A DNA stretch of 64,000 nt from Paracoccaceae bacterium. Its GTDB lineage: Bacteria; Pseudomonadota; Alphaproteobacteria; Rhodobacterales; Rhodobacteraceae. The notes under the pieces are model-generated. The model made no database searches. It saw nothing but the letters and a program-made list of their open reading frames with translations, and was not told where the DNA came from. Of this stretch, positions 141 to 17,669 are shown in pieces. The DNA lies in NCBI GenBank assembly GCA_021741245.1, contig JAIOYF010000008.1, forward strand, positions 1 to 64,000. Reading direction: 5' to 3'. Position numbers and translations under genes: made by a program. Each line of letters starts with the position of its first letter. The stretch's first letter is position 1.

Positions 141-851
141 TTATGTCGATAAGGGCAAGGCATTGAGGTCCGCTCGGACCTGTCGCCACCCCGGCATATT
201 CCTATCCATGATGCCCACGAACACGTCATCGTGGCACGGCGCAAGGAGGTGGGCCAATTCATGCAGGACCACGTAATCCAGGGATTGGAGCGGCTTTTGG
301 GCAAGGTCCAGATTTAACCAAATAAGGCCTTTTTCAGGATTGCAGCTACCCCATTTCGTTCGCATCCGCTTTATCCCCCAACGTGGTGTCGCAACGCCCA
401 GACGTTCGGCCCATTTTGCAACTCGGGGTGATGCTCGCTCTTTCAGTTGCGCTCGGGACCAATCCTTGAACCACAGGGCCTTTTGCTGAGATGTTGCCTC
501 TTCCGGCACCGTCATGATCAGGCGATCCGATCCCTCAGGTTGGATTGAACCCCTTCTCGTGGCAGCGGTTTTGACCATGAGACGAAGGGGGCGGCCGAAG
601 AAAAAATGGGTTTCTCCTGACACGTATTGCCGTTCGGTTTGGCGGGCTTGTCCCTCGAATTCGCGCTGCTTCTTCTTGATCCAGCCAAGCCGTGTCACGA
701 CCGCCACCCGGATCGCGTCCTCACTGATGGCCGGCGGAGCCGCTACCCGAACACGGCCATGGGGCGGATAGACACCGATATGCAGGTTCTTGATCGGTTT
801 GCGGATCAGTTCAACCGAAAGTCCTGCGATTTCAAAGAGTTCAGTACTCAT
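141..851 (-). CDS. YgjP-like zinc metallopeptidase (M48/SprT-like)
   Basis: 236-residue protein of the YgjP/DUF45 family, predicted cytosolic zinc metallopeptidase. The metal site is visible as HELAH in the context YVVLHELAHLL near residue 195, with a further downstream His in the family style (LAPCHDD). The region before it (RMRTKWGSCN) is the conserved YgjP lead-in. Its start lies inside the last codons of hsdR (11-base overlap), so the two are translationally linked. Proteins of this family are often found as a fourth gene in type I restriction-modification operons; the substrate there is unknown to me. No signal peptide or membrane segment is seen. The 140 bases to its left contain nothing I can support. 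Confidence 0.85.
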   Translation of the reverse strand: MSTELFEIAGLSVELIRKPIKNLHIGVYPPHGRVRVAAPPAISEDAIRVAVVTRLGWIKKKQREFEGQARQTERQYVSGETHFFFGRPLRLMVKTAATRRGSIQPEGSDRLIMTVPEEATSQQKALWFKDWSRAQLKERASPRVAKWAERLGVATPRWGIKRMRTKWGSCNPEKGLIWLNLDLAQKPLQSLDYVVLHELAHLLAPCHDDVFVGIMDRNMPGWRQVRADLNALPLST

Positions 852-3800: not shown

Positions 3801-3912
3801 GCCAATCACCAAGGTAGCGCCAGCCGAGGCCGCTGACTGTGCCAGAGGTATCGCCGCACATCTGCGCGATCATGCGGTTCTGCGTGGCACGTTCCGGATC
3901 GCCGATGGCCAT
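841..3912 (-). CDS. hsdR: Type I restriction enzyme R subunit (HsdR)
   Basis: 1023 residues, full length for HsdR, the ATP-dependent translocase/nuclease of a type I restriction system. The N-terminal PD-(D/E)xK nuclease core is visible as D145 with E159-x-K161 (RPDLVIY then VVELKK). The superfamily 2 helicase follows: Walker A in TQGSGKS around residues 284-290, and the DEAH box at 393-396 in FIDEAHR. A helical C-terminal part for complex assembly follows. The start has a good ribosome site (AAGGGGG). It lies 32 bases after hsdS in an hsdM-hsdS-hsdR order and overlaps the metallopeptidase gene downstream. All key residues look intact, so the enzyme should be active. Confidence 0.95.
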   Translation of the reverse strand: MAIGDPERATQNRMIAQMCGDTSGTVSGLGWRYLGDWQKREGNANIEPSLLRPWLIARGHDPDVATRAITELQRAARMDGLKLYEANRATYDMLRYGVQVTPGPGEAPVTVRFVDWDNPAANDLGVAEEVAITAKSPKAYNKRPDLVIYVNGIAMGVVELKKSTVDLGAGIRQTLDNQRPEFIRHFFTTVQITLAGNDMQGLRYAAIQTPQPYWLAWKEESATALPLDRDVSQMLTPARFLELINDFILFDAGIKKVARPNQYFAVKAAQHAVAAKTGGIIWQTQGSGKSLIMVMLARWIREARPDARILVVTDRKELDDQIEAVFGNTGDKVRRAKSGADLLAALADPKDRVVSSLVHKFGRREEDELGAMIADIQRGQIGAPVGEFFVFIDEAHRTQSGKLARTMRMILPDAVFYGFTGTPLLRSDKQTSLEIFGPYIGTPYRFNEAVADGVVLDLRYEARDIDQRVASPKKIDEWFEAKTKGLTPVAKATLKQRWGTLQRVLSSKDRLEQIANDIIMDMELKPRLKAGRGNAMLVAGSIPEACRLFQIFRNSGSDLAKKCAIVTSYKRTASELTGEEAGMGETEKQYVYKVYDQLMTELATDEDAYETEALRKFRKEPAQMKLLIVVSRLLTGFDAPTATYIYIDKQMRDHGLFQAICRVNRLDGEDKDYGYVVDYKDLFKNIETAVEDYTSGAFDAFDAADVEGLISSRAEKAGEDLMTARDAWFGLLDPVEQPKGDAEVLSWFSSPGGWESDPQAEEKARRRQALYKLAGAYARSFGAVADDPGASGVNDLQLAQYRGEVERAISLRDAVRLHSGDAVDMKQFEPAMRHLIDTYIKAEESAVISHLDDISLIDLVASKGAAIEGELPEALKSKRENVAEAIENNVRRLIIDETPVNPKFYERMSELLTDLVKKRKDDAIAYAEYLEKIAALVRAVKAGHGGEYPSSMTSPGRKALYDNLGQDEAATVAVDEAIRSTAQTGWRGNRMKERMLRRKLIDILWTEEAVDNVIEIIRSHDEY

Positions 3913-3944: not shown

Positions 3945-5108
3945 TCAGACCAGCCTGACCCGCCCTGTCAAAAGATTCTGCATCATCCCCTCCTTCACCG
4001 CCCGCGCCTTGCCGAGGCGGGACTCGAGGGTCTGGATTTCGGCGTCTATGTCGGAGAGGACTGCGGCGATGGCCTTCTGCTCTAGCCCATCCAAGGGAAC
4101 GTCAATCTCGATTTTCTTAATCTTCTCAACAGACAGGCCGGGCTGAGCGGACGATTCAGACACTTTGTTGAGGTCCGCATACTCCAGCCTATGCGAAATG
4201 AACTGCTGACAATTGGGCGCGGTCGCTTTGCAAACAATCGCATGTTCTGATGCGAAGATTTTTCCAACTGTATGGGTGACGACACCGCAAAGCGCTCCCT
4301 GGCGGCCAACCAAGGTGCATTCGCCATCACGGTTGAAGCTGTTTGTAAACCCACGCAAGCCGTTTCCACCAAAAACCGGATAATCTCCCTCTTCGTGGAT
4401 GAATGCAGAGGTAATCGCGTCTCCGCTTTTCATGGACATAAGGTCGCCCAGCCGCTTCACCTCCCACTCCCCCGAGAACCCCGGGAGGCGGCGGCGGGCG
4501 GTGAGGAGATCTTGCATCGCGCCCTGCTTGATCAGGCGCTTCTTGGCGATCACCCGCTCCAACCCCGCCACCACCGCATCCGCATCCGACAACGCAGCGG
4601 CGATGGCCTGTTGTTCGCGGAGAGGGGGGAGGGGTAGCGGAACTGTAACGAACTTGTCCTTTGGCAGGTGGGCGATACTTGTTTGCGTGGCAAAGTTGGT
4701 CAAGAAGCCGGTTTTCGCGTAATACTCCAGCAGATACCGCATCAGGACCGGTAAGTAGCTTCCTCTTGGCCTCAACCGGTGAAGCGCCTTCTGGAAATAG
4801 CAGTCATCCAGCTGATCTTGCCAAATGGCGGCGCGTCCAATGTCGCCGCCCTCGCAGACCAACAAATCGCCAGTCTGGAGGCGATACTTTCGCATGTCGC
4901 CTTCAGTTAATTTGATCTGATCAAGATCGGACAAGTCAACGCGCCCCCATTGAACCGAACGGTTTCCGAGGTAGGGCTTTGGCGTGCCGATGTTCTTTTC
5001 AGCATCAAGCATTTTTCCGAGAATGACATGAAACTGCGCGCCCACCGTTGAGATCGTCCAGTCAGCCGGGAATTTCGCTGGCAGTAGAGCATTGTCCGGC
5101 TCACTCAT
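3945..5108 (-). CDS. hsdS: Type I restriction system specificity subunit (HsdS)
   Basis: 387-residue DNA-recognition subunit that directs both methylation and cleavage. It has the usual two-fold layout: target recognition domain 1, a conserved helical spacer containing LPPLREQQAIAAALSD near residue 180, target recognition domain 2, and a second spacer with QKAIAAVLSDIDAEI near the C-terminus. The two spacers are visibly similar to each other, as expected for the half-subunit repeat. The start codon overlaps the hsdM stop as ATGA, so translation is coupled. The recognition domains cannot be assigned a DNA target from sequence alone. The second half has lower GC in places, consistent with recombination of the recognition domain, which is common in hsdS. 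Confidence 0.93.
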   Translation of the reverse strand: MSEPDNALLPAKFPADWTISTVGAQFHVILGKMLDAEKNIGTPKPYLGNRSVQWGRVDLSDLDQIKLTEGDMRKYRLQTGDLLVCEGGDIGRAAIWQDQLDDCYFQKALHRLRPRGSYLPVLMRYLLEYYAKTGFLTNFATQTSIAHLPKDKFVTVPLPLPPLREQQAIAAALSDADAVVAGLERVIAKKRLIKQGAMQDLLTARRRLPGFSGEWEVKRLGDLMSMKSGDAITSAFIHEEGDYPVFGGNGLRGFTNSFNRDGECTLVGRQGALCGVVTHTVGKIFASEHAIVCKATAPNCQQFISHRLEYADLNKVSESSAQPGLSVEKIKKIEIDVPLDGLEQKAIAAVLSDIDAEIQTLESRLGKARAVKEGMMQNLLTGRVRLV

Positions 5109-7543
5109 CCCGCCACCCCCATAGCCGCCAGATGCCCGGCCACCCGCGCCTCCAGCCCGGCCAGATCCTCCATGATCTGCGGCAGGGTCTGGCCATAGCG
5201 TTCGGTCAGCACCCGCACGCGGGCGGTCAGGGATTCCGTGCGCGCCTCAACCTCGGCCCCGATGGCCGCCGTGATGTCGGCCAGCCATTTGTCCTGCCCC
5301 ACAAGCGTCTGGATCTCGCCCATGGTCAGGGCGGGGTATTTCTTCAGCACGGCCTCGGTCAGCTTGGCCTCGGCCTCTTTCGCCGCCCGCTTCGTCTCGG
5401 CCTCCCCTTCAAACAGCGCGGCCACCTGTTTCAGTAGGGCCTTTTCGTCTGGCTCTAGGCCCCTGTCCTTCAGGCGCGCTTTCACGCCGCCCGCCGTCAG
5501 CTTGCCGGTGTCGGCCATCAGTTCCTCGAACAGCCCGCCCTCGACCCCATGTTCCTCGGCCAGTTCCTCGATCTCGCGCCCCAGTTCCTCGGCCCTGGCG
5601 GTGGCCTGATCCAGCGCCGCCTTTATGTCTGCGAAAAAGCGCGCGATGATCAGGCGCGGGGGGATCACATCGGCCACAAGGCGCACCTTGTTCACTGTCA
5701 GGTCGCCCTCTTCCAGCCATTTCACCTTGCCGTCGTCGGTGGTTTCCTTGCGCGCCTCACGCAATTCGCGCGCGGCCAGCCAGCCGCCGCCCGCGATGAT
5801 GAACACATCATCCTGCAGGGTGGCGGCCCAATAGGCCATCAGGCGCTGATAGGCCTCATATTTGTCAACCAGCGGGGCGGGGTCGAAACGGGTCAGCATA
5901 TCCTCGGCAATGGCGTGGATCAGGTTGCGCGGGTGGTCCCCCTGTTTGATGCCCATCAGCAGGGGAGTGTTGGCCGCGATCCAGCCGTTCAGGATGGCGG
6001 TGACCTGTGCGCGGAAGGCCGCGAAATCCGGGTGGTTGCGGATGGTGGCTCGGACCTGATCGGGGGCAACCAGCGGATCAGCATAGCCTTTGCGAGGGTT
6101 CGGCCCGAACAGCGTAGCGCGCAGGGTGGGCATGACGGCCCAGAAATCATCCAGCGCATCGATGTCCCGCTCTGGCACGCCGCCATGCAGGTGGGCGGTG
6201 ATGTCCTGCAAATCCTCGGGGTCGGAACCGTCGATGTAGCGGGGGATGTTCAGGTTAAAGTCGTTGCGGGTGATCTCGTCGAAGGGGACGAGGCGGGAAT
6301 ATCCATGGATGGTCTGCTGGCGGGTGAAGGCGTCAATGATCTTGTGGATGTCCCGCTCGCGCAGGCGGTTCTTGTTGCCGTCCTTGAGGAAGCCCTTTGA
6401 GGCGTCGATCATGAAGACGGGGCGGTTGGCTTGGGCTTGCGCCTTGTCCAGAACGATGATCGAGGCAGGGATGCCGGTGCCATAGAACAGGTTGGCAGGC
6501 AGGCCGATGACGCCCTTGATAAGCCCTCGTTTCAGGATCTTCTCGCGCAGCTTGGCCTCGGCATTGCCACGGAACAGAACGCCATGCGGCAGGATGGCTG
6601 CGCCCGATCCGGTGGCCTTCATCGAGGCGAGGATGTGCAAGAGGAACGCGAAGTCGCCGTTCTTGGCCGGTGGGTCACCATCGATGAAGCGACCATATTT
6701 CGTTTCTTCGGTCAGGCCCGAGGCCCAAGCCTTGGCCGAGAAGGGCGGGTTGGCGACAACGAAGTCAAAGGTCTCAAGGCTGTGGGCATCCGCAAGAAAA
6801 TGCGGTTCGGCGATGACATCGCCTTGCGCGACCTCGGCGGTGGCGCGGTTGTGCATGATCATGTTCATGCGGGCGAGGCCACGGGTGGCGATGTCCATTT
6901 CCTGCCCGAAGATGGTGATCGGCACGCGGGCCGTCTCGGCGGCTTTCAGCAGAAGCGAGCCCGAGCCGCAGGTCGGATCATAGACTGTCTGCTTTGGGCT
7001 GGTCGCCCGACTGACCCCCGCCACGGCGGCCACGACGCGCGACACCTCGGCCGGCGTATAGAACTGGCCTTTGGACTTGCCGGCTTCGGTCGCGAAGTTC
7101 CGCATCAGGTATTCGTAGGCGTCGCCAAGAATGTCGTCACCATCGGCGCGGTTTTTCGAAAAGTTCAGTTCTTCCCGGCTGAAGATGTTGATCAACGTGG
7201 TCAGGGTGTTGATCATCTTCGGGCCACGCCCGAATTTTTCCGGGTCGTTGAAAAAGGCCCGGTCGATCACCCCACTGAGGTCGTTCTCCTCGGCGATGCG
7301 GGCAATGATGGTGTCCATTCCCTCGCCGATGTTCTTGGACCCGCGCAGGGCTTTCATGTCGGAAAAAGAAGCGCCAGCCGGTACTTCGATCAACGCATCG
7401 GGCTGGCCGGCGCGGTCAGAGACATATTTCACGAAAAGCAGGGTGAGGATGTAATCCTTGTAAAGCGAGGCATCCATGCCGCCCCGGAGCTGGTCGCAGC
7501 TTTCCCAGAGGGACCGGTAAATGTCGCTCTTCTTGATGGCCAT
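5105..7543 (-). CDS. hsdM: Type I DNA methyltransferase subunit (HsdM)
   Basis: N6-adenine DNA methyltransferase and core of the type I complex. From the chosen start it has 812 residues. The order is an N-terminal helical domain (starting MAIKKSDIYRSLWESC), the QFYTP motif at 160-164, the S-adenosylmethionine motif DPTCGSG at 189-195 and the catalytic NPPF at 265-268. A long charged C-terminal part of about 350 residues follows, rich in Glu, Lys and Ala and probably coiled coil. The open frame extends 134 codons further upstream, but I chose the ATG at 7543 because it has an AAGGGG ribosome site and matches the family N-terminus, while the upstream extension looks non-coding. At about 810 residues it is longer than classical EcoKI-type HsdM (about 530). 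Confidence 0.93.
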   Translation of the reverse strand: MAIKKSDIYRSLWESCDQLRGGMDASLYKDYILTLLFVKYVSDRAGQPDALIEVPAGASFSDMKALRGSKNIGEGMDTIIARIAEENDLSGVIDRAFFNDPEKFGRGPKMINTLTTLINIFSREELNFSKNRADGDDILGDAYEYLMRNFATEAGKSKGQFYTPAEVSRVVAAVAGVSRATSPKQTVYDPTCGSGSLLLKAAETARVPITIFGQEMDIATRGLARMNMIMHNRATAEVAQGDVIAEPHFLADAHSLETFDFVVANPPFSAKAWASGLTEETKYGRFIDGDPPAKNGDFAFLLHILASMKATGSGAAILPHGVLFRGNAEAKLREKILKRGLIKGVIGLPANLFYGTGIPASIIVLDKAQAQANRPVFMIDASKGFLKDGNKNRLRERDIHKIIDAFTRQQTIHGYSRLVPFDEITRNDFNLNIPRYIDGSDPEDLQDITAHLHGGVPERDIDALDDFWAVMPTLRATLFGPNPRKGYADPLVAPDQVRATIRNHPDFAAFRAQVTAILNGWIAANTPLLMGIKQGDHPRNLIHAIAEDMLTRFDPAPLVDKYEAYQRLMAYWAATLQDDVFIIAGGGWLAARELREARKETTDDGKVKWLEEGDLTVNKVRLVADVIPPRLIIARFFADIKAALDQATARAEELGREIEELAEEHGVEGGLFEELMADTGKLTAGGVKARLKDRGLEPDEKALLKQVAALFEGEAETKRAAKEAEAKLTEAVLKKYPALTMGEIQTLVGQDKWLADITAAIGAEVEARTESLTARVRVLTERYGQTLPQIMEDLAGLEARVAGHLAAMGVAG

Positions 7544-8108
7544 GGACCGCCCCTTCTCGAAATCTCTCCGGTTTTCAGTTTGATAGGGCCTATTTGTCCA
7601 GAATGACAGCCTGCGGTGCGCCGAAGGCACTGCTTTGTTGGCTTGAACCTCTTGGGGAAGAAAGCGTGGGGGGATGCATTGGTCTGCGGCTTCGACACGC
7701 TTGCTTATCTCTGGGTCCCCGCGGTGGAGCAGGCAGGACGAAACTGGCACAAAGTTTGTTTTTCCCACCGTGCCAGCGGGGCGGTCAAGGGGGCCCTTTG
7801 GTGCCTGTGGCTCGCGATCCCAGCCAGATATCAACGAGTGATTTGCACACAGATGCAAGGTTTCTTGAAACTGGGTTCGACGGAGGCTGACCACCAGCCC
7901 GGATCGACGGTTTGCGAATTTCTGAAACTTCGCTTTTTCCTCCACGGACAGGGCGTCATTTTCACTTTTTCGCAGATAAATCAGTGTGTTGACTCGTTTT
8001 AGTAATTCTGGTGCTTGGCGCCATCAGAAGAATCACCGCCGCCGGTGCTGGCTGTTCCAACCCAGCGGACGAAGGTGACTTTACCTAGGTCAACGAAGGA
8101 CAAAGACC
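7544..8108. other. Divergent intergenic region between hsdM and the AAA+ ATPase leader
   Basis: About 560 bases with no convincing gene; the open frames crossing it lack family resemblance and ribosome sites. It must hold the promoter of the leftward hsd operon and probably that of the rightward accessory genes. The part around 7840-8030 is clearly richer in A and T than the flanks. It has two similar short motifs, TTTCTTGAAACT near 7860 and TTTCTGAAACT near 7920. One boundary of the inserted block may lie here, but I found no clear terminal repeat. Confidence 0.5.
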
Positions 8109-8159
8109 ATGAAACATCACGACTGGTCTATCGACAGACCTTGGCTGTTTGAGGCCTGA
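8109..8159 (+). CDS. Possible 16-residue leader peptide before the AAA+ ATPase
   Basis: Mini-ORF encoding MKHHDWSIDRPWLFEA. An SD-like GAAGGA stands about 9 bases before its ATG. It ends in a short AGGCC/GGCCT stem (8152-8166), and about 100 bases separate it from the ATPase gene. A strong hairpin (8199-8229) lies in between, so it could act as a leader or attenuator-type ORF. It is too short for family recognition and may be chance. Confidence 0.3.
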   Translation: MKHHDWSIDRPWLFEA

Positions 8160-8198
8160 GCGGCCTTAGGCATTCGTTTTTCCCAGAACTCAAAAACC

Positions 8199-8229
8199 AA
8201 GCTGCCGGGCGCATTTCGCCCGCCGGCTT
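8199..8229 (+). promoter_or_regulatory. GC-rich hairpin in the leader of the AAA+ ATPase gene
   Basis: Arms 8199-8211 and 8217-8229 pair at 11 of 13 positions around a 5-base loop (CATTT), about 30 bases before the ATPase start. No U-run follows directly, so it is not a simple terminator. It may control read-through or translation of the ATPase gene. Confidence 0.5.
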
Positions 8230-8261
8230 CCCCATGCCGTCATCATAAGAAGGAAACCATC

Positions 8262-9356
8262 ATGGCTCGCATACCGTTCATCCTCGGGCACTTACCCGAT
8301 CCGAAGTTCACCAAATCCGGGATCGAGCGACGCTTGAAGCAGCATTTTCGACGCCTGAAAGCGCAAAAAGCCATGCTCGATCTGGCTGAAGAGGCTGTCG
8401 AAGATGTTGAAATTTACGGCGACAAAGACGCCAAAGAGATCCCTTGGAGTGCGAAGAGCAAGATCATCCGTCGTGCCGACCTGATGCACGCCTGTGTTCT
8501 CAAAAAATCTGTTTTCGCGCAACTGAAGCCCGAGGATCGCAAGCGCCTTGACGGAGTTGCGACAGGGATTTCGATTGTCGGTATTCCCTCGGGTCACCGT
8601 GCTGACGAGATTGCCGCAGCACTTCATGCTGATTTTCCATGGTTGGGGCCAGCAACAGAAGTCGTCTGGCATGGGTTGCGACGCTCGGTAGAACACGGCG
8701 ATCCTGGTGTGCGGATTTCGCCGCTTCTGCTCGATGGCCCGGCAGGTATTGGCAAAAGCCACCTTGCCCGAAAGCTGGCGAAACTGCTGGGCGTGCCTTC
8801 CATGGTCGTCGAAGCGACGAACGAGAATGCGAGCTTCGGCGTTGTTGGTTCCCAGAGAAGCTGGGGAAACTCAGCGCCGGGGCGCCTGATCAACTTCATC
8901 TTAAGCGAGGGGGTGGCGAACCCGATCGTAATCCTCGACGAGTTGGAAAAGGCCGGTGACGTTCGCGCAACCAAGGGCCAAAGCTATTCCCTGACGGAGG
9001 CACTGCTGCCGATGCTCGAACCTTTGTCGGCTGCACGCTGGACCTGTCCCTATTTCGAGGTGCCATTCGACATGCGCTGGGTCGGCTGGGTCATGACCAC
9101 GAACAATTTTCGCCTTTTGCCTGACCCACTGCTCAGTCGGTGCCCCCCGATCCGCCTTTCGGCCCCAACCATCGAGCAGCTGAAGGCATTTGCACGACGG
9201 CAGGGCGCCGACCGCAACCTGAGCGAGCTGTCGGTCGAGGCGATCTGCGAGGTCTTGGACCGTGCGGGCGCACGCGGATACCTGCCCGATCTTCGCGCTG
9301 TGATCAGGATGTTGGACCGTGCGGAATGGCTGGAGCGGAGGCCGCGGCTTCAGTGA
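8262..9356 (+). CDS. Lon-type AAA+ ATPase lacking a protease domain
   Basis: 364-residue AAA+ ATPase. Residues 1-130 are a charged helical region unlike the Lon substrate-binding domain. The ATPase core has Walker A GPAGIGKS at 159-166, Walker B VILDELEK at 223-230 (D226, E227), sensor-1 TTNN at 279-282 and a likely arginine finger in LLSRC (R293). The stretch with WGNSAPGRLI near 201-210 resembles the pore/substrate-loop region of the Lon ATPase, hence the Lon-type assignment. The chain stops after the small helical lid, with no Ser-Lys protease domain. A good ribosome site (AAGGAAA) precedes the ATG. It is on the same strand as the Tn7-like operon but 520 bases upstream of tnsA. It could be cargo, a defence ATPase or a transposition accessory protein; the sequence does not decide. 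Confidence 0.75.
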   Translation: MARIPFILGHLPDPKFTKSGIERRLKQHFRRLKAQKAMLDLAEEAVEDVEIYGDKDAKEIPWSAKSKIIRRADLMHACVLKKSVFAQLKPEDRKRLDGVATGISIVGIPSGHRADEIAAALHADFPWLGPATEVVWHGLRRSVEHGDPGVRISPLLLDGPAGIGKSHLARKLAKLLGVPSMVVEATNENASFGVVGSQRSWGNSAPGRLINFILSEGVANPIVILDELEKAGDVRATKGQSYSLTEALLPMLEPLSAARWTCPYFEVPFDMRWVGWVMTTNNFRLLPDPLLSRCPPIRLSAPTIEQLKAFARRQGADRNLSELSVEAICEVLDRAGARGYLPDLRAVIRMLDRAEWLERRPRLQ

Positions 9357-9810
9357 TGGGCAAAAAATCCTGGGATCAAGCTGCGCACTTGTCGAATCTA
9401 GACAGCGTCACATTCCCGCAAGGATTCGGATAAGTCACAGAACTTAATACGAAAAATTCCGGAATGATCCTGGCTCGGTCGGCGTTCCTACCGTGTTTTT
9501 CACGGCAAAGAATCAAGCCTGTGGACAACCAATTGTTTTGACTCGGAATTTTCTCTGCACCCCGCAACAATGCGTAAACAACATTTACGACGGAGACTGG
9601 CCAGAGAGAAAAGGACCTGAAAAGAAAAGCCCGATCCAGATGGATCGGGCAATAAGGCGGCCGGGTGAACCCGACTATACTCAAGGATCCAACCTACGCA
9701 GTTCCAGCGCGAACGCAAGCGGTGATCCCGGCCAAACGTTGAAATCTCAGTGGCGATGCAAGCCGCTGCCACATTCAACCTGGACCCAACAGTCCGGGAC
9801 CGGAGACCGC
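9357..9810. other. Non-coding gap between the AAA+ ATPase and the transposition operon
   Basis: About 450 bases without a supported gene. It holds a small CCGTG/CACGG stem at 9491-9505 and a perfect 9-bp hairpin at 9629-9650, which reads as an intrinsic terminator on the minus strand. It should also contain the promoter of the transposition operon. A short leftward RNA ending near 9620 is possible. Confidence 0.5.
9620..9650 (-). terminator. Intrinsic terminator-like hairpin, minus strand
   Basis: Arms 9629-9637 and 9642-9650 (GCCCGATCC/GGATCGGGC) form a perfect 9-bp stem with a 4-base loop. On the minus strand it is followed by TTTTCTTTT (9628-9620), the classic layout of a Rho-independent terminator. 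No leftward gene is known just upstream of it on that strand, so it would end an unrecognised transcript. Confidence 0.6.
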
Positions 9811-9882
9811 ATGTCAAAAAGCAACGACTATTCTCGACACTTCGCTCAGACCGCCGATAAGTTCGCGAGGTTCCTGCCATGA
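9811..9882 (+). CDS. Possible 23-residue ORF coupled to tnsA
   Basis: Short ORF (MSKSNDYSRHFAQTADKFARF and two more residues) with GGAG about 6 bases before its ATG. Its stop overlaps the tnsA start as ATGA, the same junction style used by the following genes of the operon. No family is recognised. It may be a coupling leader for tnsA translation or a small protein; the charge pattern (Lys/Arg plus aromatic residues) would suit a short helix. Confidence 0.4.
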   Translation: MSKSNDYSRHFAQTADKFARFLP

Positions 9883-10565
9883 GTTCGACCTATTTCTGGG
9901 ACGATCCACGCCCTTCACGGGCAGTGAAACCTGTTCCCAAGTCCGGTCACGGCCATTTCGTGGTCCAGATGGTGATTCACGATACCGATGAGCAACCGGG
10001 GCAGATTTCGATGTGCGGGAGCCTCGGCGAATACCGGACACGTTTGATCGCCCTCGCGGAACCGGACACGATCGACGTGATCGAACAGGTCGGACCATTT
10101 CCATGGACTGACGAAAAGGGCGAACGGCACCACCATTACATCGACCAGATTGTGGTCAAGAATGATGGCCGCCGGTTGGGGCTCACCGATAAGCCCTATC
10201 GCAGGGTGACCCCAGCTTTTCAGGCCGAAATCGCTCAGGTCGATGCAGAGGCTCGGAAGAGGGGCGCCATCAATCGGTTGTATCTTGTCACGGAATACGC
10301 TCGCGATCCGATCAAGCTTTACAATGCGGACCTCTTTCGGGGCTGCAGGGATGCAGATCCTGAAGCGGATGCGTTGGCATTGGCCGTCGTGACCGACCTT
10401 TCTGGTGACGTCCCGCTTCAAAGTCTGGTGGCCGAAATCAACCGCGGACCCCGAGGGTTCCGGGCTCTTGTTCGACTGATCCAGCAAGGGATTTTGCGGC
10501 TTGCCCACGAAGAAAAGATCAAACCCACGACCCTGGTCATCCGCGGGGAGGTGTCCCATGTCTGA
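9879..10565 (+). CDS. tnsA: TnsA-like transposon endonuclease
   Basis: 228-residue protein with the restriction-endonuclease-like fold of TnsA, which cuts the 5' strands at transposon ends and so permits cut-and-paste movement. The family signature is seen as SLGE (E51), YID (D89) and DKP (K105), with the Q-x-G-P stretch at 70-73 between the first two. These match in order and spacing the E, D and K of the Tn7 TnsA active site. The residue two before the Lys is Thr (T103), where Tn7 TnsA has Gln. The C-terminal half is helical and ends in a basic segment, in the place of the TnsC-binding domain. Its start overlaps the 23-codon ORF and its end overlaps tnsB by 8 bases. Confidence 0.75.
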   Translation: MSSTYFWDDPRPSRAVKPVPKSGHGHFVVQMVIHDTDEQPGQISMCGSLGEYRTRLIALAEPDTIDVIEQVGPFPWTDEKGERHHHYIDQIVVKNDGRRLGLTDKPYRRVTPAFQAEIAQVDAEARKRGAINRLYLVTEYARDPIKLYNADLFRGCRDADPEADALALAVVTDLSGDVPLQSLVAEINRGPRGFRALVRLIQQGILRLAHEEKIKPTTLVIRGEVSHV

Positions 10566-12861
10566 TCAGGGATTCAGCGGCCCTATTTTTCGGTTCGAAG
10601 TTGGCTCGACCGGCCGATTGGGCAAGCGTAACATTACCTTCTTGCGTGCGGCCTTGTCGGGCTATCTGGTCGAGTTCTTGCCACACCCCGACGCCGAGCA
10701 GATCCCTGAGGTGATGCGCGGCACACGGCCGGATATCGAATTTGTCGGCAGACGCGTGATCCCACACGCTGAACTGACTGCCGCATTGCTGGACGGTACG
10801 CTCGACATCGATGAGGGCGACCATGTCTTTATCGACCACACTCAAACCTTCAAGCCCGAGTTTGTGGCATCGTTGACCGACCGGCCTGCGAACGATTTGA
10901 TCCTGCGCTACGCAACGGTCATCCTGATGCGGGAGATAGCTCAGGAAAAGAAACTTGGGCGTCCGACACGGCGCCAAGTTCAAATGCTTGAATCCGAAAT
11001 TCTCAAGCGCCTTCCGGCCAGGATCGATCTTCTGAATGGCAAGGTCGACCACCTGCGCCGCTATCCTTTCCGTCGGCGAAAAAATCCTGTCAACGTGGCG
11101 ACGGCGCAGACAATCCTTGACTGGGATGAGCGGCTGACGAACCGAGGCTTCTGCTGCCTTGTCGACAGGCTGCATATTTCGGGTAACGGAACTGGGAAAC
11201 TCGCTCCGGAAGTCGAGGCAATTCTCGACGAGGAACTCAAAGAACGGGATACCCTTGAGGCGGTGCCCAACATCGCGATCCATGAAGTGGTTGAACGGCG
11301 TGTCTTCAATTTGCGTGCCGAGCGGGATGCGGAACTTCTGCGACGCGAGACAGCCGGTGAGGTGATTGACGCTGCTGACCGTGATGCAGTTGAAAGGATC
11401 AAGCCTCCCTCTCTTAAAACCGTCGGAATCCGCATCAAAAGCCGCAGCATCTTGGAGAGGGCGCTGCGCGGCAAGGGGCCAGACTGGCTCCTGCGCAACC
11501 AACTCGTGACCGGCCGGGGACTGCAAGTCGAACGCGCCGGGCACATTGTCATGATCGACGAATACGACGCCGATCTGATGTCGATCATTCCCTTCGACTA
11601 TTTGATCCACTGGCTCGGTGTGGCAAAGGTGGCGGCTCTCGGGATTTCTGGAGAGGCGCCATTCCGGATCATCATTTCAGTGATGATTGACGCTTTCACA
11701 GGCTGCATTCTTGGCTTGCAGTTGGGGCTTACTGCCGATCAAGACCTCGCCCGTCGCACCTTCATGCTGGCCATGATGGACAAGTCGAAGATCTCTGCCG
11801 CCTGCGGCGCCGAAAGTGCTTGGGACCAATTCCTCCGGCCAGAGAAGGTCCTACATGACTCTGGCAACGCCTACATCGCCAGCGAAACCGAGCGGATGTG
11901 TGGCCTGTTGCGGATGGATAAGATTTCAGCGCCCAAGGCAGCGCCATTCCTTCGCGGTCTGATGGAGCGCATCTTCCGCACGGTCCATGAACGACTGTTG
12001 GCGCGAATTCCCGGCAAGACGTTCGCGAATCCGGTGAGACGCGGCGAATATGACTCCGAGGCCGAGGCGATCCTGACCCTCGATGACCTGATCCAGGTGC
12101 TGATCGTTTGGATCGTGGATATCTATCACAATTCCCCAAATCTTGGGCGCGACGGGCTGACGCCAGCCGATCTCTGGCGGCACGAGATGGCGGTTGGGAT
12201 AGGCTGCCGGCCAGTTCCGGGGTTGCGGTCGATGACCCATGTCTTCGGTACGACGCTCACGCGCCGGGCTCATGGGACGGGCATTCGCATCATGCATGCC
12301 AACTATTTCTCGGAAGATTTCGCCCGGGTATTGCTGAGATCCCCGACACGCGCCTTCCGGGTGCGCTGGTGGGAAGAGAATATGAGTGAGGCTCAAGTTG
12401 AGGTTGAACCACGGGTCTGGATGCCCCTCGAGGTCATGGAAGCTCGTGCCCGCGGCCTGTCAGTTGATGAATGGATGCTGCTGCTCAAGCGCGATGACGT
12501 GGCGCGCAACCCCGAGGCCGCCGCGATCCGACGGCGTGCGGGCGAGTTGATCGACGAATTGGTTGAAGATCGGATAGCGACCCGGCGAAAACTGCGACGC
12601 AAAATCTTGACAGAAGAGCGCCTCAAGCAAGCCGAAGATCGTGCGCTGCGCCACTTCTCGACACCCACAACCGAAATCACCAGTGCCGAAACGCATGGGC
12701 TTTATGGGGTGCCGGTTGGCGCCGATCACGACGAGGACGGCGTTGTACGTGAGGTGCCCGCCGCAGAACCTGCCGCTGAACAAAAGCGAAAGGTGACCGC
12801 AAACACCGCCCAGCGGGACAGGCGCCGGAATACCCGATGGATCCCAGGAACGATGGAATGA
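10558..12861 (+). CDS. tnsB: TnsB/TniA-like DDE transposase
   Basis: 767-residue Mu/TnsB/TniA-type transposase that binds the transposon ends and does 3'-strand cutting and strand transfer. The RNase-H catalytic triad is D334 in VMIDEYD, D434 in VLHDSGN and E470 in GLMERIF; all three are present with proper spacing. Residues 1-300 hold the end-binding helical domains. The C-terminal 150 residues are charged and become basic at the tail, where partner ATPase contact is expected. The open frame starts 57 bases earlier, but the ATG at 10558 follows GGGGAGG and sits at the tnsA stop, so I chose it. It overlaps tnsC by ATGA. Confidence 0.92.
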   Translation: MSDQGFSGPIFRFEVGSTGRLGKRNITFLRAALSGYLVEFLPHPDAEQIPEVMRGTRPDIEFVGRRVIPHAELTAALLDGTLDIDEGDHVFIDHTQTFKPEFVASLTDRPANDLILRYATVILMREIAQEKKLGRPTRRQVQMLESEILKRLPARIDLLNGKVDHLRRYPFRRRKNPVNVATAQTILDWDERLTNRGFCCLVDRLHISGNGTGKLAPEVEAILDEELKERDTLEAVPNIAIHEVVERRVFNLRAERDAELLRRETAGEVIDAADRDAVERIKPPSLKTVGIRIKSRSILERALRGKGPDWLLRNQLVTGRGLQVERAGHIVMIDEYDADLMSIIPFDYLIHWLGVAKVAALGISGEAPFRIIISVMIDAFTGCILGLQLGLTADQDLARRTFMLAMMDKSKISAACGAESAWDQFLRPEKVLHDSGNAYIASETERMCGLLRMDKISAPKAAPFLRGLMERIFRTVHERLLARIPGKTFANPVRRGEYDSEAEAILTLDDLIQVLIVWIVDIYHNSPNLGRDGLTPADLWRHEMAVGIGCRPVPGLRSMTHVFGTTLTRRAHGTGIRIMHANYFSEDFARVLLRSPTRAFRVRWWEENMSEAQVEVEPRVWMPLEVMEARARGLSVDEWMLLLKRDDVARNPEAAAIRRRAGELIDELVEDRIATRRKLRRKILTEERLKQAEDRALRHFSTPTTEITSAETHGLYGVPVGADHDEDGVVREVPAAEPAAEQKRKVTANTAQRDRRRNTRWIPGTME

Positions 12862-13970
12862 CCGCCATGACACTTTCCACCAATTCACTCCCCCTCGATG
12901 CCGCCACCACAGCAGCTACGCGCGCGGAACCTGACTTCGGCAATCAATCCTCTGACGACGAGCTGTCCGCCCTCTGCGATCGGATCCGGAACCGTTACGT
13001 GTCAAGCGACTGGGATAACGAATTTATCACCCGCCTTGAGTTGGTCTTGTGCCGCACGGGCGATGGTCGGCTGCTTCCTAACCCAAAGATTTTCCATGGC
13101 GAGACCGGAGGTATCGCAGTCACTGGACCGAGCCGGGATGGCAAGTCCACCTTGGTTCGGCGGGTGATCGAACGAATTTTCGCAGAACGGCTCGACGATG
13201 ACAGACCCGGTAAGCATGTCATCTACCATCGTGTTCGCACCGCCGCGACCCTGAAAAGCGTCTACACCGACCTCTGCAAGGCGACCGGATTTTCAAGCTT
13301 TCCGGCGCGGATGACGGTGCCGGAAGCCCATGACCTCGCCATCCATCGGCTGCGTTTGGCCGGAATTCGTATTGTGATCCTGGACGAGGTTCACAACCTG
13401 CTCGGCTATGACAACAAGGCGGTTAACCTCTTCCTCAAAACCTTTGTGCAGGACGGTGGCGGGTTCTGTCTCATCGTCATCGGCACCCCTGTCCTGCGCA
13501 AATTCATCTTTGAGCAGGTAGAAAATGTAGAACTGGCCGGGCGGTTGCTCGACATGCCGCTGGAGCAATTTCCCGAGGCCAAATCGCTCGGTCTCATCAG
13601 TGGCGCTCTGGAGGGGCTTTGTTCTGATGCGGGGTTGCGCCTTGCGCCCAGCATCCACCGGGATCCGTATTTTGCACATCGCATCCTGGAGGGCTGTCGC
13701 GGCAGCTATGGCAGATCGATGCGATTGATCTCCACCTCGATTGTGCTTGCCTTGGAGGAAGGAGCATCTGCGGTCGACATCGAAGATTTCCGGCGGGTTT
13801 TTGACCTTAATCTGCTCTACTTCAACCCCGAGAATCCATTCCGCTTGAGCGATTGGGCCAGCCGATCTACGGCAAGTTTCGGCCAGCCCGGGCAGGTCAG
13901 CGACACGGATTTCGGCGCGGCCAACAAGAAGCCGCAAAGCCGGACGGGACGGAAGAGGTCCAAGAAGTGA
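12858..13970 (+). CDS. tnsC: TnsC/TniB-like AAA+ transposition regulator
   Basis: 370-residue ATPase that links target selection by TniQ to the transposase. Walker A is GPSRDGKST at 90-98 and Walker B is VILDE at 173-177, followed by HNLLG, the TniB/TnsC signature. The C-terminal part carries an alpha-helical lid and a basic tail (RTGRKRSKK). An in-frame ATG 21 bases earlier is possible; I chose the ATG that overlaps the tnsB stop because every junction in the operon has this form. The 3' end overlaps the GTG start of tniQ. Confidence 0.9.
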   Translation: MTAMTLSTNSLPLDAATTAATRAEPDFGNQSSDDELSALCDRIRNRYVSSDWDNEFITRLELVLCRTGDGRLLPNPKIFHGETGGIAVTGPSRDGKSTLVRRVIERIFAERLDDDRPGKHVIYHRVRTAATLKSVYTDLCKATGFSSFPARMTVPEAHDLAIHRLRLAGIRIVILDEVHNLLGYDNKAVNLFLKTFVQDGGGFCLIVIGTPVLRKFIFEQVENVELAGRLLDMPLEQFPEAKSLGLISGALEGLCSDAGLRLAPSIHRDPYFAHRILEGCRGSYGRSMRLISTSIVLALEEGASAVDIEDFRRVFDLNLLYFNPENPFRLSDWASRSTASFGQPGQVSDTDFGAANKKPQSRTGRKRSKK

Positions 13971-15955
13971 CCGCCGAAATTCTGCTCCCCGCGCTGCCAT
14001 TCCATGAAGATGAGGTGACGCAAGGCTACTTCGCCCGGATCGGTCATTTCCATGCGGGCGTGGATGTGGGTAGATTCTGCCGCTACACGGCCTTGCCGTT
14101 GACCGACTTTCGCGATGGGACCGACGAATTTGTGGCGAATGTTGCCGCGCTGTCTGGAAACGATCTGGACTGGCTTCGGCGGAACACGCTGCGTCGGCTA
14201 CCTGATGATCAATTCCTTTTCCGCGAAGAAACCCTGTCCGTTGCGGTACTGCGCCGGACTACTGTGCATTTCTGCCCGCAGTGTCTGGCCGAGGATCAAG
14301 CCCGCAATCCAGAACTGGGACAAGGGGCATGCCGCCTGCGGTGGTCGTGGCTTTTGCGGCCAGTGGTAAGCTGCCCGGTCCACGGCACGGAGCTTGTGGA
14401 ATGTCCCGAACCTGACGCAGTGAAAGCCTTTGACCTGACCCTGCTCCGCGCCCGAAATGAGCCGCTCCTGCGAGCCAAGCCCCCTGTAGGGAAACACCAA
14501 CCCGGGTGCCTCCAGCGCTATGTGGTTTCACGGCTGGAAGGCCATCGCAATGCTGCGGCCTGGTTGGATGAGCAAGCCCTCGCGCAGGCAGTCAAAGCGT
14601 GTGAAATGCTCGGGGCGCTGCTGGCAAATGGTCCTACGGCCGAAATCGGCGACTACACCGATATCGATTGGGCAAATGCCGGTGATGTCGGCTTTGGCAT
14701 TTGCAGCAGGGGGGCCGAAGCCATTACCCATTCCCTTTTGGCTATCCGACAGACGTCTGGGCGCCGCAGCGGGAGGACCGGGCCTCAAGCGGTGTTCGGC
14801 CTCCTCTATCGCTGGCTGGAATACACCGCCAGGCCCGAGGAGGCAGGGCCGATCCGCAACCTTTTGCGCGAAGTGATCCTCTCATCATTCGCGATCGGCC
14901 CCGGCGAGATTGTCTTGGGTCAGAAGGTCGAACGCCGCATTGTCCATAGCGTAAACTCGCTGAAGGCAGCCACCGGCCTGAACCCCAAGCGCCTCTATCG
15001 GTTGATGCTGAAGGCGGGCATGATCCCTGCAAACACCAATGACGAAGCGCTTAACCAGTGGGTCTTCCCGGCAGAAGCAGGTGAAGATCTCATCGCGCGA
15101 ATTTTGAATTCGGTTCCGCAGAACCAGCTGAAGGGCTTGCTGGGATGCAGCAAGACCCAGGCGGAGCAGCTTGCCGCCGCTAAACTCGTCACGTCCGTCG
15201 TGCCGGTTGAGGAGGGGGACGTCGGTCTGTCTGTCGGTGCGTATAACCGCGACGAAATCACAAGCTTTCTTGCCCTGGTTTGTTCGCATGCCGAGTCCGG
15301 TGCTGAAGAGTCCGAAGGTTTTCTTGACCTGACGCGGGTCTCCAAGGGCAGGTCCTCCACGGTCGAAGTCATTCGCTGGCAGATCGAGGGACAACTGAAA
15401 CATACCCGGCTCATCGGGGCAGGTCACCGGATCGACCGACTCCGGTTTTCCTTGGCCGAGGTTCGGGTACTCGCTCGGGCAAGAGCTGGGACGGACTTGC
15501 ACCGATTGACTGTGGTTGCGGACCGCCTTGGCCTGACACTGTTGGCGGTTAAACAACTGACCGCTTCTGAAAGCGGAGAGCCGCTCCTCCCCCTCGTTCC
15601 GAAAGAGGATTGTGTCGGTCGCCAAGGGGCGGCCTATGTGTCCACCGCAGCCATCGAGAAATTTCTGGCGTCCTATGCATCCTTGAGCCAGGTCGCGAAG
15701 TTGATGGGTGTGCACCCCAAGACTGCGTCCATTGTGCTGGAGGGAAGGTTGTCGCCGGTATCGCATCCGAGCGCCGCCGGGATCCGGCTTTATCATCGTC
15801 AGGACATTGAGACATTTCTGAGCAGGATCGACGCGGCGGGCGGCGCTGGAATTGGACGGCCCCAAAAGGGTCAAACCCATGAAGAAAAGGGCCTCAACTG
15901 TTCAGAAAGCGCTGAAATCGGCAGTTTTGGTGAGATCGATGCTTCCATCCGGTGA
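13967..15955 (+). CDS. tniQ: TniQ/TnsD-like target-selection protein
   Basis: 662 residues. The N-terminal TniQ domain begins LPALPFHEDE and contains the zinc-binding set C103-x2-C106 and C136-x2-H139 (FCPQCLAE and SCPVHGT). The long C-terminal part has several helix-turn-helix-like segments; the clearest is QVAKLMGVHPKTASIVLEG near residue 570, which looks like DNA-binding. The length is nearer to TnsD (about 500) than to short TniQ (about 400), suggesting a site-specific targeting protein. I chose the GTG that overlaps the tnsC stop (GTGA); upstream in-frame codons lie inside tnsC. As the last gene of the operon it faces the zwf promoter region. Confidence 0.85.
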   Translation: MTAEILLPALPFHEDEVTQGYFARIGHFHAGVDVGRFCRYTALPLTDFRDGTDEFVANVAALSGNDLDWLRRNTLRRLPDDQFLFREETLSVAVLRRTTVHFCPQCLAEDQARNPELGQGACRLRWSWLLRPVVSCPVHGTELVECPEPDAVKAFDLTLLRARNEPLLRAKPPVGKHQPGCLQRYVVSRLEGHRNAAAWLDEQALAQAVKACEMLGALLANGPTAEIGDYTDIDWANAGDVGFGICSRGAEAITHSLLAIRQTSGRRSGRTGPQAVFGLLYRWLEYTARPEEAGPIRNLLREVILSSFAIGPGEIVLGQKVERRIVHSVNSLKAATGLNPKRLYRLMLKAGMIPANTNDEALNQWVFPAEAGEDLIARILNSVPQNQLKGLLGCSKTQAEQLAAAKLVTSVVPVEEGDVGLSVGAYNRDEITSFLALVCSHAESGAEESEGFLDLTRVSKGRSSTVEVIRWQIEGQLKHTRLIGAGHRIDRLRFSLAEVRVLARARAGTDLHRLTVVADRLGLTLLAVKQLTASESGEPLLPLVPKEDCVGRQGAAYVSTAAIEKFLASYASLSQVAKLMGVHPKTASIVLEGRLSPVSHPSAAGIRLYHRQDIETFLSRIDAAGGAGIGRPQKGQTHEEKGLNCSESAEIGSFGEIDASIR

Positions 15956-16178
15956 AATGGATGCTTCCCTGACTGATATGGGCGGAAGAGCGCTCTATGT
16001 TTATCAATGGTTTAACAGGTGCAAATGTGCTAACTATGGTTCCGTTCACACAAGGGCAAGCTTAGGCGCGTGCTGTGCACGTCTAGGGTGGCGGTAGGTT
16101 GCCGTATATACGCAATTTGGTTCTAACACCGTTCGGTCGATGCTAGACAGGGCGACGATTGCGAAGTAAACGGCCTTA

Positions 16179-16217: not shown

Positions 16218-17669
16218 ATGGTTTCGCGTGTCATTCCGGTCGATGTGTTCGACCTTGTGATTTTTGGCGGCACTGGCGACCTTGCCCGGCGCAAGATCCT
16301 GCCCGGGCTTTATCGCAGGTTCCTGTCGGGGCAAATGACCTCTGACAGTCGCATCATCGGCGCTGCCCGTGGTGAGCTGACCGATGCCGATTTTCGCAAG
16401 ATGGTGTCGGATTCAATTGACGAGTTTGTGCCCAAAGGCCGCCGCGACCCCGCAATCATTGAGGCTTTTCTGAGCCGCCTGCACTATGTCGCCATCGACG
16501 CCAAGGGTGAGGGCGGTTGGGACAATCTGAAATCCCTGATGCGCCCCAATGTGGTGCGGGCCTTTTACTTCTCGGTTGCGCCCAGCCTGTTTGGGGACAT
16601 TGCGGCCCGGTTGAACACCCATGGTGTCGCTGACGCGCAAAGCCGAATCGTGGTGGAAAAGCCCTTTGGTCGCGATCTTGCCTCGGCGCGGGCGCTGAAT
16701 GCGATCTTGGCCGAGCAATTCGCCGAAAGTCAGATCTATCGCATCGACCATTATCTGGGCAAGGAAACCGTCCAGAACCTGATGGCGGTTCGCTTTGCCA
16801 ATATCTTGTTCGAGCCGCTGTGGAAGTCGGAATACATTGATCACGTGCAGATCACGGTTGCTGAAACCGTCAGTGTGGAAGGGCGGGGTGCTTATTACGA
16901 TAAGTCCGGCGCGATGCGTGACATGGTTCAAAATCACATGATGCAGCTTTTGTGCCTGATCGCGATGGAACCGCCCTATCACTTTGATCCCGATGCCGTG
17001 CGCGACGAAAAGCTAAAGGTCATCCGGGCACTCGATCCTGTGCGCTCCGAAGATATCGTGCGCGGGCAATATCTGGCGGGTGGCGGGCAGGGGGGCTATG
17101 TCGCGCATTCCGAGAACGTGACCTCCAAGACCGAAAGCTATATCGCGCTGAAGGTCAACGTCTCGAACTGGCGCTGGAAGGGCACGCCCTTTTACCTGCG
17201 CACCGGCAAACGTCTGCGGGCACGGACATCCGAGATCGCGATCACCTTCAAAGAACCGCCGCATTCGATCTTTGACGATGCCGAGGGTTGGCGCGAAAAT
17301 GTTCTGGTGATCCGGTTGCAACCCGATGAGGGGATGAACCTGATGGTGATGATCAAGGAACCCGGCCCGGGCGGTATGCGCCTGATGCAGGTGCCCTTGG
17401 ACATGTCCTTTGCCGAGGCTTTGGGTGACGAGGCCGAGGATATTCCAGATGCCTATGAACGGCTGATCATGGATGTGATCCGGGGCAACCAGACCTTGTT
17501 CATGCGCGGAGATGAGGTCGAGGCCGCCTGGGCCTGGACCGATCCGATCATCAACGCCTGGGAGGCCAAGGGCGACAAGCCGCAAGGCTATGATCCCGGC
17601 ACATCGGGCCCCGAGGATGCGCTGATGCTGATGCACCGTGACGCACGGCGCTGGCGGGAAATCCGCTGA
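16218..17669 (+). CDS. zwf: Glucose-6-phosphate 1-dehydrogenase
   Basis: 483 residues, full length. It oxidises glucose-6-phosphate to 6-phosphogluconolactone with NAD(P)+, feeding the Entner-Doudoroff and pentose phosphate routes. The N-terminal Rossmann segment is seen in VIFGGTGDLARRKI near residue 14, and the active-site signature RIDHYLGKE at 175-183 contains the catalytic His region and substrate Lys. The ribosome site AGAGG precedes the ATG. It is the first gene of a three-gene operon and overlaps pgl by one base (TGATG). Confidence 0.97.
   Translation: MVSRVIPVDVFDLVIFGGTGDLARRKILPGLYRRFLSGQMTSDSRIIGAARGELTDADFRKMVSDSIDEFVPKGRRDPAIIEAFLSRLHYVAIDAKGEGGWDNLKSLMRPNVVRAFYFSVAPSLFGDIAARLNTHGVADAQSRIVVEKPFGRDLASARALNAILAEQFAESQIYRIDHYLGKETVQNLMAVRFANILFEPLWKSEYIDHVQITVAETVSVEGRGAYYDKSGAMRDMVQNHMMQLLCLIAMEPPYHFDPDAVRDEKLKVIRALDPVRSEDIVRGQYLAGGGQGGYVAHSENVTSKTESYIALKVNVSNWRWKGTPFYLRTGKRLRARTSEIAITFKEPPHSIFDDAEGWRENVLVIRLQPDEGMNLMVMIKEPGPGGMRLMQVPLDMSFAEALGDEAEDIPDAYERLIMDVIRGNQTLFMRGDEVEAAWAWTDPIINAWEAKGDKPQGYDPGTSGPEDALMLMHRDARRWREIR

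Follow-up and report, generated by a model that had tools for sequence, protein, structure and literature searches.

A Tn7-like transposon behind an HNH-endonuclease gene in Rhodobacteraceae, with its cargo upstream of tnsA

What attracts a Tn7-like transposition operon to the neighborhood of zwf in a member of the Rhodobacteraceae? We analyzed 64,000 nucleotides from a Paracoccaceae bacterium (assembly GCA_021741245.1, contig JAIOYF010000008.1, positions 1 to 64,000 of the forward strand), a stretch called the window here; the genome is designated G000 and the contig C22. The window contains the transposition genes and one end of a Tn7-like element of at least 21.2 kb, and we are highly confident that the homing target of this element is the 3' end of a conserved HNH-endonuclease gene, both ends, the target-site duplication, the empty site and the gene order all having been located. 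The zwf gene, taken as the landmark in an earlier note on this DNA, is a bystander, and the element stands behind the HNH gene, which faces its far end. By the working definition of a Tn7-like element, TnsB and TnsC with TnsA and/or TniQ (PMC11406308, cited here and below from excerpts), the window element is Tn7-like, with TnsA, TnsB, TnsC and TniQ all present.

Ends, duplications and attachment gene

By convention the right end of such an element is the one that lies upstream of its tns genes (PMC11406308), and we use right for the HNH side and left for the tniQ side. The left end was delimited by comparing window positions 12100-16050 with the related copy in genome G465 (locus L036): identity is 98.2% over 3951 bp and stops exactly at 16050, past which G000 and G465 each enter their own flank. 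In the window this end reads ...GGTTCCGTTCACA and is followed by CAAGG; G465 has the identical end, followed by TCGGG and an mgtC gene. The terminal ACA, where the identity stops, occupies 16048..16050 (+ strand), the left CAAGG copy 16051..16055, and zwf (16218..17669, + strand) is native flank outside the element, as judged from a comparison of zwf loci. The earlier note had tniQ abutting the zwf promoter; 262 bp separate the tniQ stop from the start codon of zwf, but the element boundary is at 16050, not at that stop. Three putative TnsB-binding sites lie on the + strand: a terminal one at 16027..16043, 7 bp from the terminus (matrix score 20.6), a second at 15952..15968 (24.7), which holds the tniQ stop codon, and a third at 15930..15946 (24.9), inside tniQ. 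All three are seeds of the weight matrix, which was built from ten end sites, so that they score high by construction; with a threshold of 9 the matrix gave 10 hits in the 64-kb window, the three left-end sites at 20.6-24.9 and the other seven at 9.3-11.8.

The right end lies on another contig, C25. When the left-end motif (from 15930, 15952 and 16027) was sought across the whole genome with up to two mismatches, 15 matches were found, and C25 carries two of them, 43 bases apart (166602 and 166645), in the opposite orientation, as expected for the other end. This end begins TGTGGAGGGAAGG at C25:166595, 21 nt past the stop of the HNH-endonuclease gene, and is preceded by the second copy of CAAGG (C25:166590-166594). 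The termini are TGT/ACA, and the same 5-bp duplication borders both ends. The CAAGG pair came first among 8 pairs in a scan for paired ends (TG..CA with equal 5-bp flanks) that took in 3000 bases and 600 bases around the two ends; 18 of its 26 bases matched, and the runner-up had 11. The right end is 5.1 kb from the C25 contig end and C22 starts inside the element, giving the minimum length of 21.2 kb around an unsequenced middle.

Copies whose TnsB is at least 60% identical over the available part were treated as one clade, drawn from overlapping scans of 147 and 394 genomes and one collection scan. The carriers are G000, G465, G015 (L037), G434 and G392 (L035); their five TniQ sequences form one clade with support of 100/100 in a tree of 16, and plasmid records gave only TnsB relatives below 60% identity (25 records). 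Exact 5-bp duplications, CAAGG twice in G000, TCGGG twice in G465 and GTGAA twice in G015, border three of the four elements with both ends, the fourth (G434) being a decayed copy without one; in G015 the left terminus was set by ACA and site spacing, and GTGAA fits it. Putative right-end sites lie 7 and 50 bp from the terminus in four of the five copies (only the 50-bp site scored in G015), and putative left-end sites at 7, 82 and 104 bp in G000 and G465 and at 82 and 104 bp in G015. The two ends carry arrays of similar sites inverted to each other, and the right-end spacing of 43 bp, against 75 and 22 bp at the left end, is a weak fit to the compact right and spaced left ends of Tn7. Counted inward from the right end, the first 1650 bp of the G000 and G465 copies agree at 99.6%, yet insertion points, duplications and flanks differ; these are independent insertions of almost the same element, and the movement is recent. 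In G392, a site-motif search of L035 gave no match; tandem units of about 17 bases stand at its contig start (L035:1-150), upstream of tnsA and of a small open reading frame (ORF) read as a helix-turn-helix protein.

The right end sits behind the same HNH gene in all five genomes, at 21 nt from its stop in G000, 20 in G015, 20 in G434, 19 in G392 and 82 in G465, the last four distances counted on printed sequence. The zwf gene was located in 65 of 101 genomes, G000 included, and 30 loci were returned, or 28 after removal of the occupied sites of G000 and G015. HNH lies 109-1253 bp upstream of zwf in 20 of these 28, too close to fit the element, and was not found within about 1.5 kb before zwf in the other eight. 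It adjoins zwf in all 13 sampled same-genus genomes that have zwf and no element, and this HNH-zwf neighborhood is the empty site. Over stretches of up to 20 kb, argS, nagZ, scpB and HNH precede zwf in that order in 10 of 17. The zwf gene was rejected as the attachment site because the right end is behind HNH in all five genomes and because genes separate the left end from zwf, mgtC in G465 and others in G434. Before zwf in G015 there is a second left-end-like sequence (L037:7980-8084; one site, matrix score 14.8, terminus set by eye), which stands behind ORFs read, from the ORFs only, as HlyD and ABC-transporter genes; it looks like the remnant of an earlier element at this site, ahead of the current insertion.

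Operon, cargo and the Lon-like ATPase

The AAA, tnsA, tnsB, tnsC and tniQ genes are where the earlier note put them, all on the + strand of the window: a Lon-like AAA+ ATPase (8262..9356; PF00004, E 7e-11), the endonuclease tnsA (9879..10565), the DDE transposase tnsB (10558..12861, its ORF open from TTG 10501), the AAA+ ATPase tnsC (12837..13970) and a tniQ/tnsD-like target selector with a long C-terminal part (13853..15955, start codon uncertain). TniQ (PF06527, E 3e-19), TnsC (TniB, PF05621, E 5e-11; AAA_22, E 2e-11) and the AAA protein pass curated Pfam cut-offs; TniQ residues 611-657 match HTH_17 below its cut-off. TnsB matches the PADLOC TnsB model (E 2e-15), and its best matches among PDB sequences are the solved TnsB chains of type I-F3 CRISPR-associated transposons (E 1.5e-17); PDB sequence searches with TnsC and TniQ returned no match. 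For TnsA, Pfam gave no match and PDB sequences gave hits at chance level only; the name comes from homologous ORFs at the equal operon position, upstream of tnsB (79% identity in G434, 74% in G392). The catalytic and zinc residues singled out earlier are conserved. TnsA E51 and D89 are invariant in 21/21 aligned rows, and residue 105 is K in 16 of them and R in the other 5; TniQ zinc ligands C141, C144, C174 and H177 are kept in 12/12; and the TnsB triad, previously numbered D334/D434/E470 from ATG 10558, becomes D353/D453/E489 from TTG 10501 and is kept in 18/18. In each alignment the window protein is counted twice, and a few loci contribute more than one, overlapping row.

The order is right end, cargo, AAA, tnsA, tnsB, tnsC, tniQ, left end, with the unsequenced stretch within the cargo. 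Between the tniQ stop and the left terminus there are 51 bp in G434 and 95 bp in G000, G465 and G015. In the latter three copies, TGA forms bases 2-4 of the second putative TnsB site and the third site is inside tniQ, so that the stop codon falls within a putative left-end site in three of four copies. This overlap would tie the operon to the left end: cargo between tniQ and the left terminus would break the site array, which would make the space between the right end and tnsA the cargo slot. An element with cargo upstream of tnsA had been proposed, and it was borne out, a right end having been located beyond the restriction genes and none just left of tnsA; the restriction system, between the right end and tnsA, is inside the element. 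The non-standard layout described in the earlier note needs narrowing: the polarity is that of Tn7, with the attachment gene outside the end upstream of tnsA and the tns genes co-directional, and only the cargo slot is displaced.

The window cargo, all on the - strand, consists of a YgjP-like metallopeptidase gene (141..851; PF01863, E 5e-53) and the type I restriction genes hsdR (841..3912; PADLOC REase_I, 1197 bits; Pfam SWI2_SNF2/HSDR_N), specificity subunit hsdS (3945..5108; PF01420, E 1e-30) and methyltransferase hsdM (5105..7945; PADLOC MTase_I, 1183 bits, residues 135-944), whose true start is probably near 7543, as the family match begins at residue 135. On the C25 side are an interrupted integrase-like gene and methyltransferase, cytochrome b561 and TetR genes. 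The integrase-like gene, the first inside the right end, has no Pfam match and was named by eye; it is stop-interrupted in G000 and is common to only G000 and G465 among the five copies, since the 0.7-2.9 kb available next to the right end in G015, G434 and G392 did not reveal it. As a TnsF-type selector belonging to the core it was rejected on these grounds. A 30-kb contig of G465 (C16; L140/L141) encodes BrxB, BrxC, PglX, PglZ and BrxL; it starts in the same integrase-like gene (93.5% identity over 556 bp), and its last 45 bp match the DNA upstream of tnsA at 84%. The G465 cargo is probably a BREX system, the contig being placed next to neighbors that it does not overlap and at an identity below that of the core. 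Near-identical cores would then probably carry different cargo, type I restriction-modification in G000 and BREX in G465. At the left edge of the window, positions 49-142 are identical to the last 94 bases of G465:C31, and this contig edge may be repeated or mobile sequence.

Is the displaced cargo slot the mark of a distinct family, as the earlier note thought it might be? Two Rhodobacteraceae-family elements, in G195 and G379, have TnsB proteins only 30% and 28% identical to that of the window, and lie behind a ribonucleotide reductase gene in the order ribonucleotide reductase gene, end, AAA, restriction-type genes (by ORF reading), tnsA-B-C-tniQ, end. They differ from the window element in TnsB, neighboring gene and end sequences; the inverted repeats that border them agree in 16 and 17 of 18 positions, respectively (at most 12-13 in eight shuffles, of G195 only), and no target duplication was recognized there. 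The succession of attachment gene, end, AAA, cargo, tnsA-B-C-tniQ and end is the same, and therefore the displaced slot is not peculiar to one family. Pairing of ends by duplication at five other Tn7-like loci gave no convincing pair (best 14-16/26 among 77-97 pairs each). G000 itself has further Tn7-like operons or tniQ genes at C9:84483-85778, C21:135, C21:57542 and C26:14634; the C9 TnsB is 28% identical and has an AAA homolog 15 kb upstream, and C21 has tniQ near both contig ends.

The AAA protein upstream of tnsA has the NCBIfam model 'lon' as its best match, far under the model cut-off, and resembles the Lon ATPase part only (residues 152-339). The earlier note counted it as cargo; it turns up repeatedly beside tns operons, and may be an associated gene of theirs rather than mere cargo. 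Across 394 family genomes, AAA occurs in 43 (65 loci) and a TnsB match in 51 (62 loci); the two co-occur in 23 of the 43 AAA genomes against 5.6 expected (hypergeometric 4e-12, ignoring ancestry and taking the TnsB and AAA scans as the same 394 genomes). In ten cases AAA and TnsB share a contig at a distance of no more than 40 kb; the two are always co-oriented, and AAA is the upstream one in nine. AAA is directly upstream of tnsA in four operons, those of G000, G434, G009 (TnsB only 31% identical) and G166:C1 (TnsB found only by profile). A second Tn7-like operon of G392 (C49; L142 2549-10294) has an AAA homolog directly downstream of tniQ; in all, that genome has four AAA homologs on contigs other than that of L035, and two of the four lie close to the start of a contig.

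Against this stands the reading of the ATPase as ordinary cargo or part of a defense module, for example with the restriction system, which is compatible with homing to HNH and which we consider a serious contender, if somewhat the less probable of the two. No AAA gene turned up in the 821 bases available upstream of tnsA in L035 or on G465 C16, and among 16 AAA neighborhoods, chosen partly for a nearby TnsB match, seven have tnsABC, one tniQ only and eight, as far as the contig extends, no tns gene within about 10 kb. It is at least an even bet, and perhaps slightly better, that the Lon-like AAA is a frequent companion of tns operons.

Alternative readings and proposed mechanism

Several points weigh against homing to the HNH gene by a single element. 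The G465 insertion lies 82 nt from the HNH stop rather than about 20. In G434 the flanks are unmatched (GCGGG versus GCAAC), the left terminus is TCA and was set by site spacing, and tnsB-tnsC is partly deleted; in G392 the left end is not on its contig. In L082 and L084, which belong to other genera, a stretch of 19 kb upstream of zwf yielded no HNH. The two ends of the window element are on separate contigs, C25 and C22, with the middle unsequenced and the full length bounded only from below, at 21.2 kb, and the methyltransferase, cytochrome b561 and TetR genes of C25 have 93% identical G465 copies on contig C45, which are not known to be in the G465 element. Recognition of HNH by TniQ is suggested by position, and the AlphaFold model of TniQ, poor (mean predicted local distance difference test score 48) and unfit for a fold search, decides nothing.

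Could the C25 right end belong to another, decayed transposon, and the window operon be a resident domesticated locus or fixed island beside zwf? The separate contigs, with no sequence joining them, the interrupted integrase-like gene as the first inside the right end, and the second left-end-like sequence beside zwf in G015, from which stacked insertions at the site seem to happen, would all be in keeping with this. However, CAAGG matches exactly, HNH and zwf adjoin in 13/13 sampled element-free genomes of the genus, G000 has one tnsB of this clade (its second match being 28% identical), and G465 and G015 show the same end pair with duplications of their own, so that we regard two separate elements or a fixed island as very improbable. 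A minimal tnsABC-tniQ element with its right end just upstream of tnsA and the restriction genes as unrelated neighbors can be set aside almost entirely: the site matrix (threshold 9) has no hit between 7500 and 9900, where the standard end that the earlier note named as its refuting case was likewise not found, the sequence immediately preceding AAA, from about 7960 on, resembles that of G434 by eye, and no supporting point was found.

A single Tn7-like element homing to the HNH 3' end could work as follows. The element, of at least 21.2 kb, would be a cut-and-paste transposon in which TniQ, TnsD-like with its long C-terminal part, would read the 3' coding end of HNH, as its position suggests. 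By analogy with Tn7, TnsC would bridge to TnsA and TnsB on the end arrays, setting side and distance; TnsB would pair the ends, and TnsA and TnsB would cut and join. Insertion would take place about 20 bp past the HNH stop, with the right end, upstream of tnsA, next to HNH. The protein contacts in this scheme are drawn from Tn7, and the positions, duplications and polarity are observed.

Relation to known elements and significance

The element shares with Tn7 the proteins TnsA, TnsB, TnsC and a TnsD/TniQ selector, the 5-bp duplication, the TGT/ACA termini, insertion shortly past the 3' end of a conserved gene and an attachment gene that flanks the element on the side upstream of tnsA (PMC11406308). 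It differs in using HNH rather than glmS, in the cargo between the right end and tnsA, in the tniQ stop inside a putative left-end TnsB site and in the AAA gene. In Tn7 the cargo lies beyond the last tns gene. Related TnsB-, TnsC- and TniQ-type proteins are found in the Tn5053 family, whose members resolve through a site-specific recombinase, and TnsC here matches Pfam TniB; unlike in that family, TnsA is present with conserved E51 and D89, and the element stands behind a chromosomal gene rather than at the plasmid resolution sites favored by the family (PMC11406308). Tn6022/AbaR-type elements with TnsF have a short TniQ of 369 amino acids (PMC10293859, in excerpt), and the I-F3 TnsA is related to Tn6022 (PMC11406308); TnsA, B, C and TniQ are common to both, and the best PDB matches of the window TnsB are I-F3 proteins, whereas TniQ here has about 660-700 amino acids and the element is behind HNH, not comM. 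As for a CRISPR-associated transposon, no cas effector was found among the family-searched genes, no array search having been made, and the long TniQ argues against one.

An HNH attachment gene was not met in the literature searched: no title describes a Tn7-like element behind an HNH or ribonucleotide reductase gene, although supplementary tables of surveys may list such elements, and the excerpts mention neither HNH nor zwf (PMC10293859) nor HNH (PMC8649781). The five insertions and 13 same-genus empty sites form a set for working out how TniQ reads the end of a coding gene, and the element is a delimited one whose target-selector gene overlaps a transposon end. Related elements with unrelated cargo have already been reported (PMC8649781, in excerpt), and mechanisms of cargo swapping still to be discovered are thought likely in Tn7-like elements (PMC11406308); near-identical cores with different defense cargo bear on how this swapping occurs. 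The recurring Lon-like ATPase is a candidate accessory factor. More tentatively, and on balance we doubt it, there could be an alphaproteobacterial group of Tn7-like elements in which tniQ runs into the TnsB array of the left end, cargo is housed between the attachment-side end and tnsA, and a protease-less Lon-type AAA+ protein is a working part. If so, this AAA+ protein would have been kept across unlike lineages with different attachment genes, for example for transpososome remodeling or cargo exchange.

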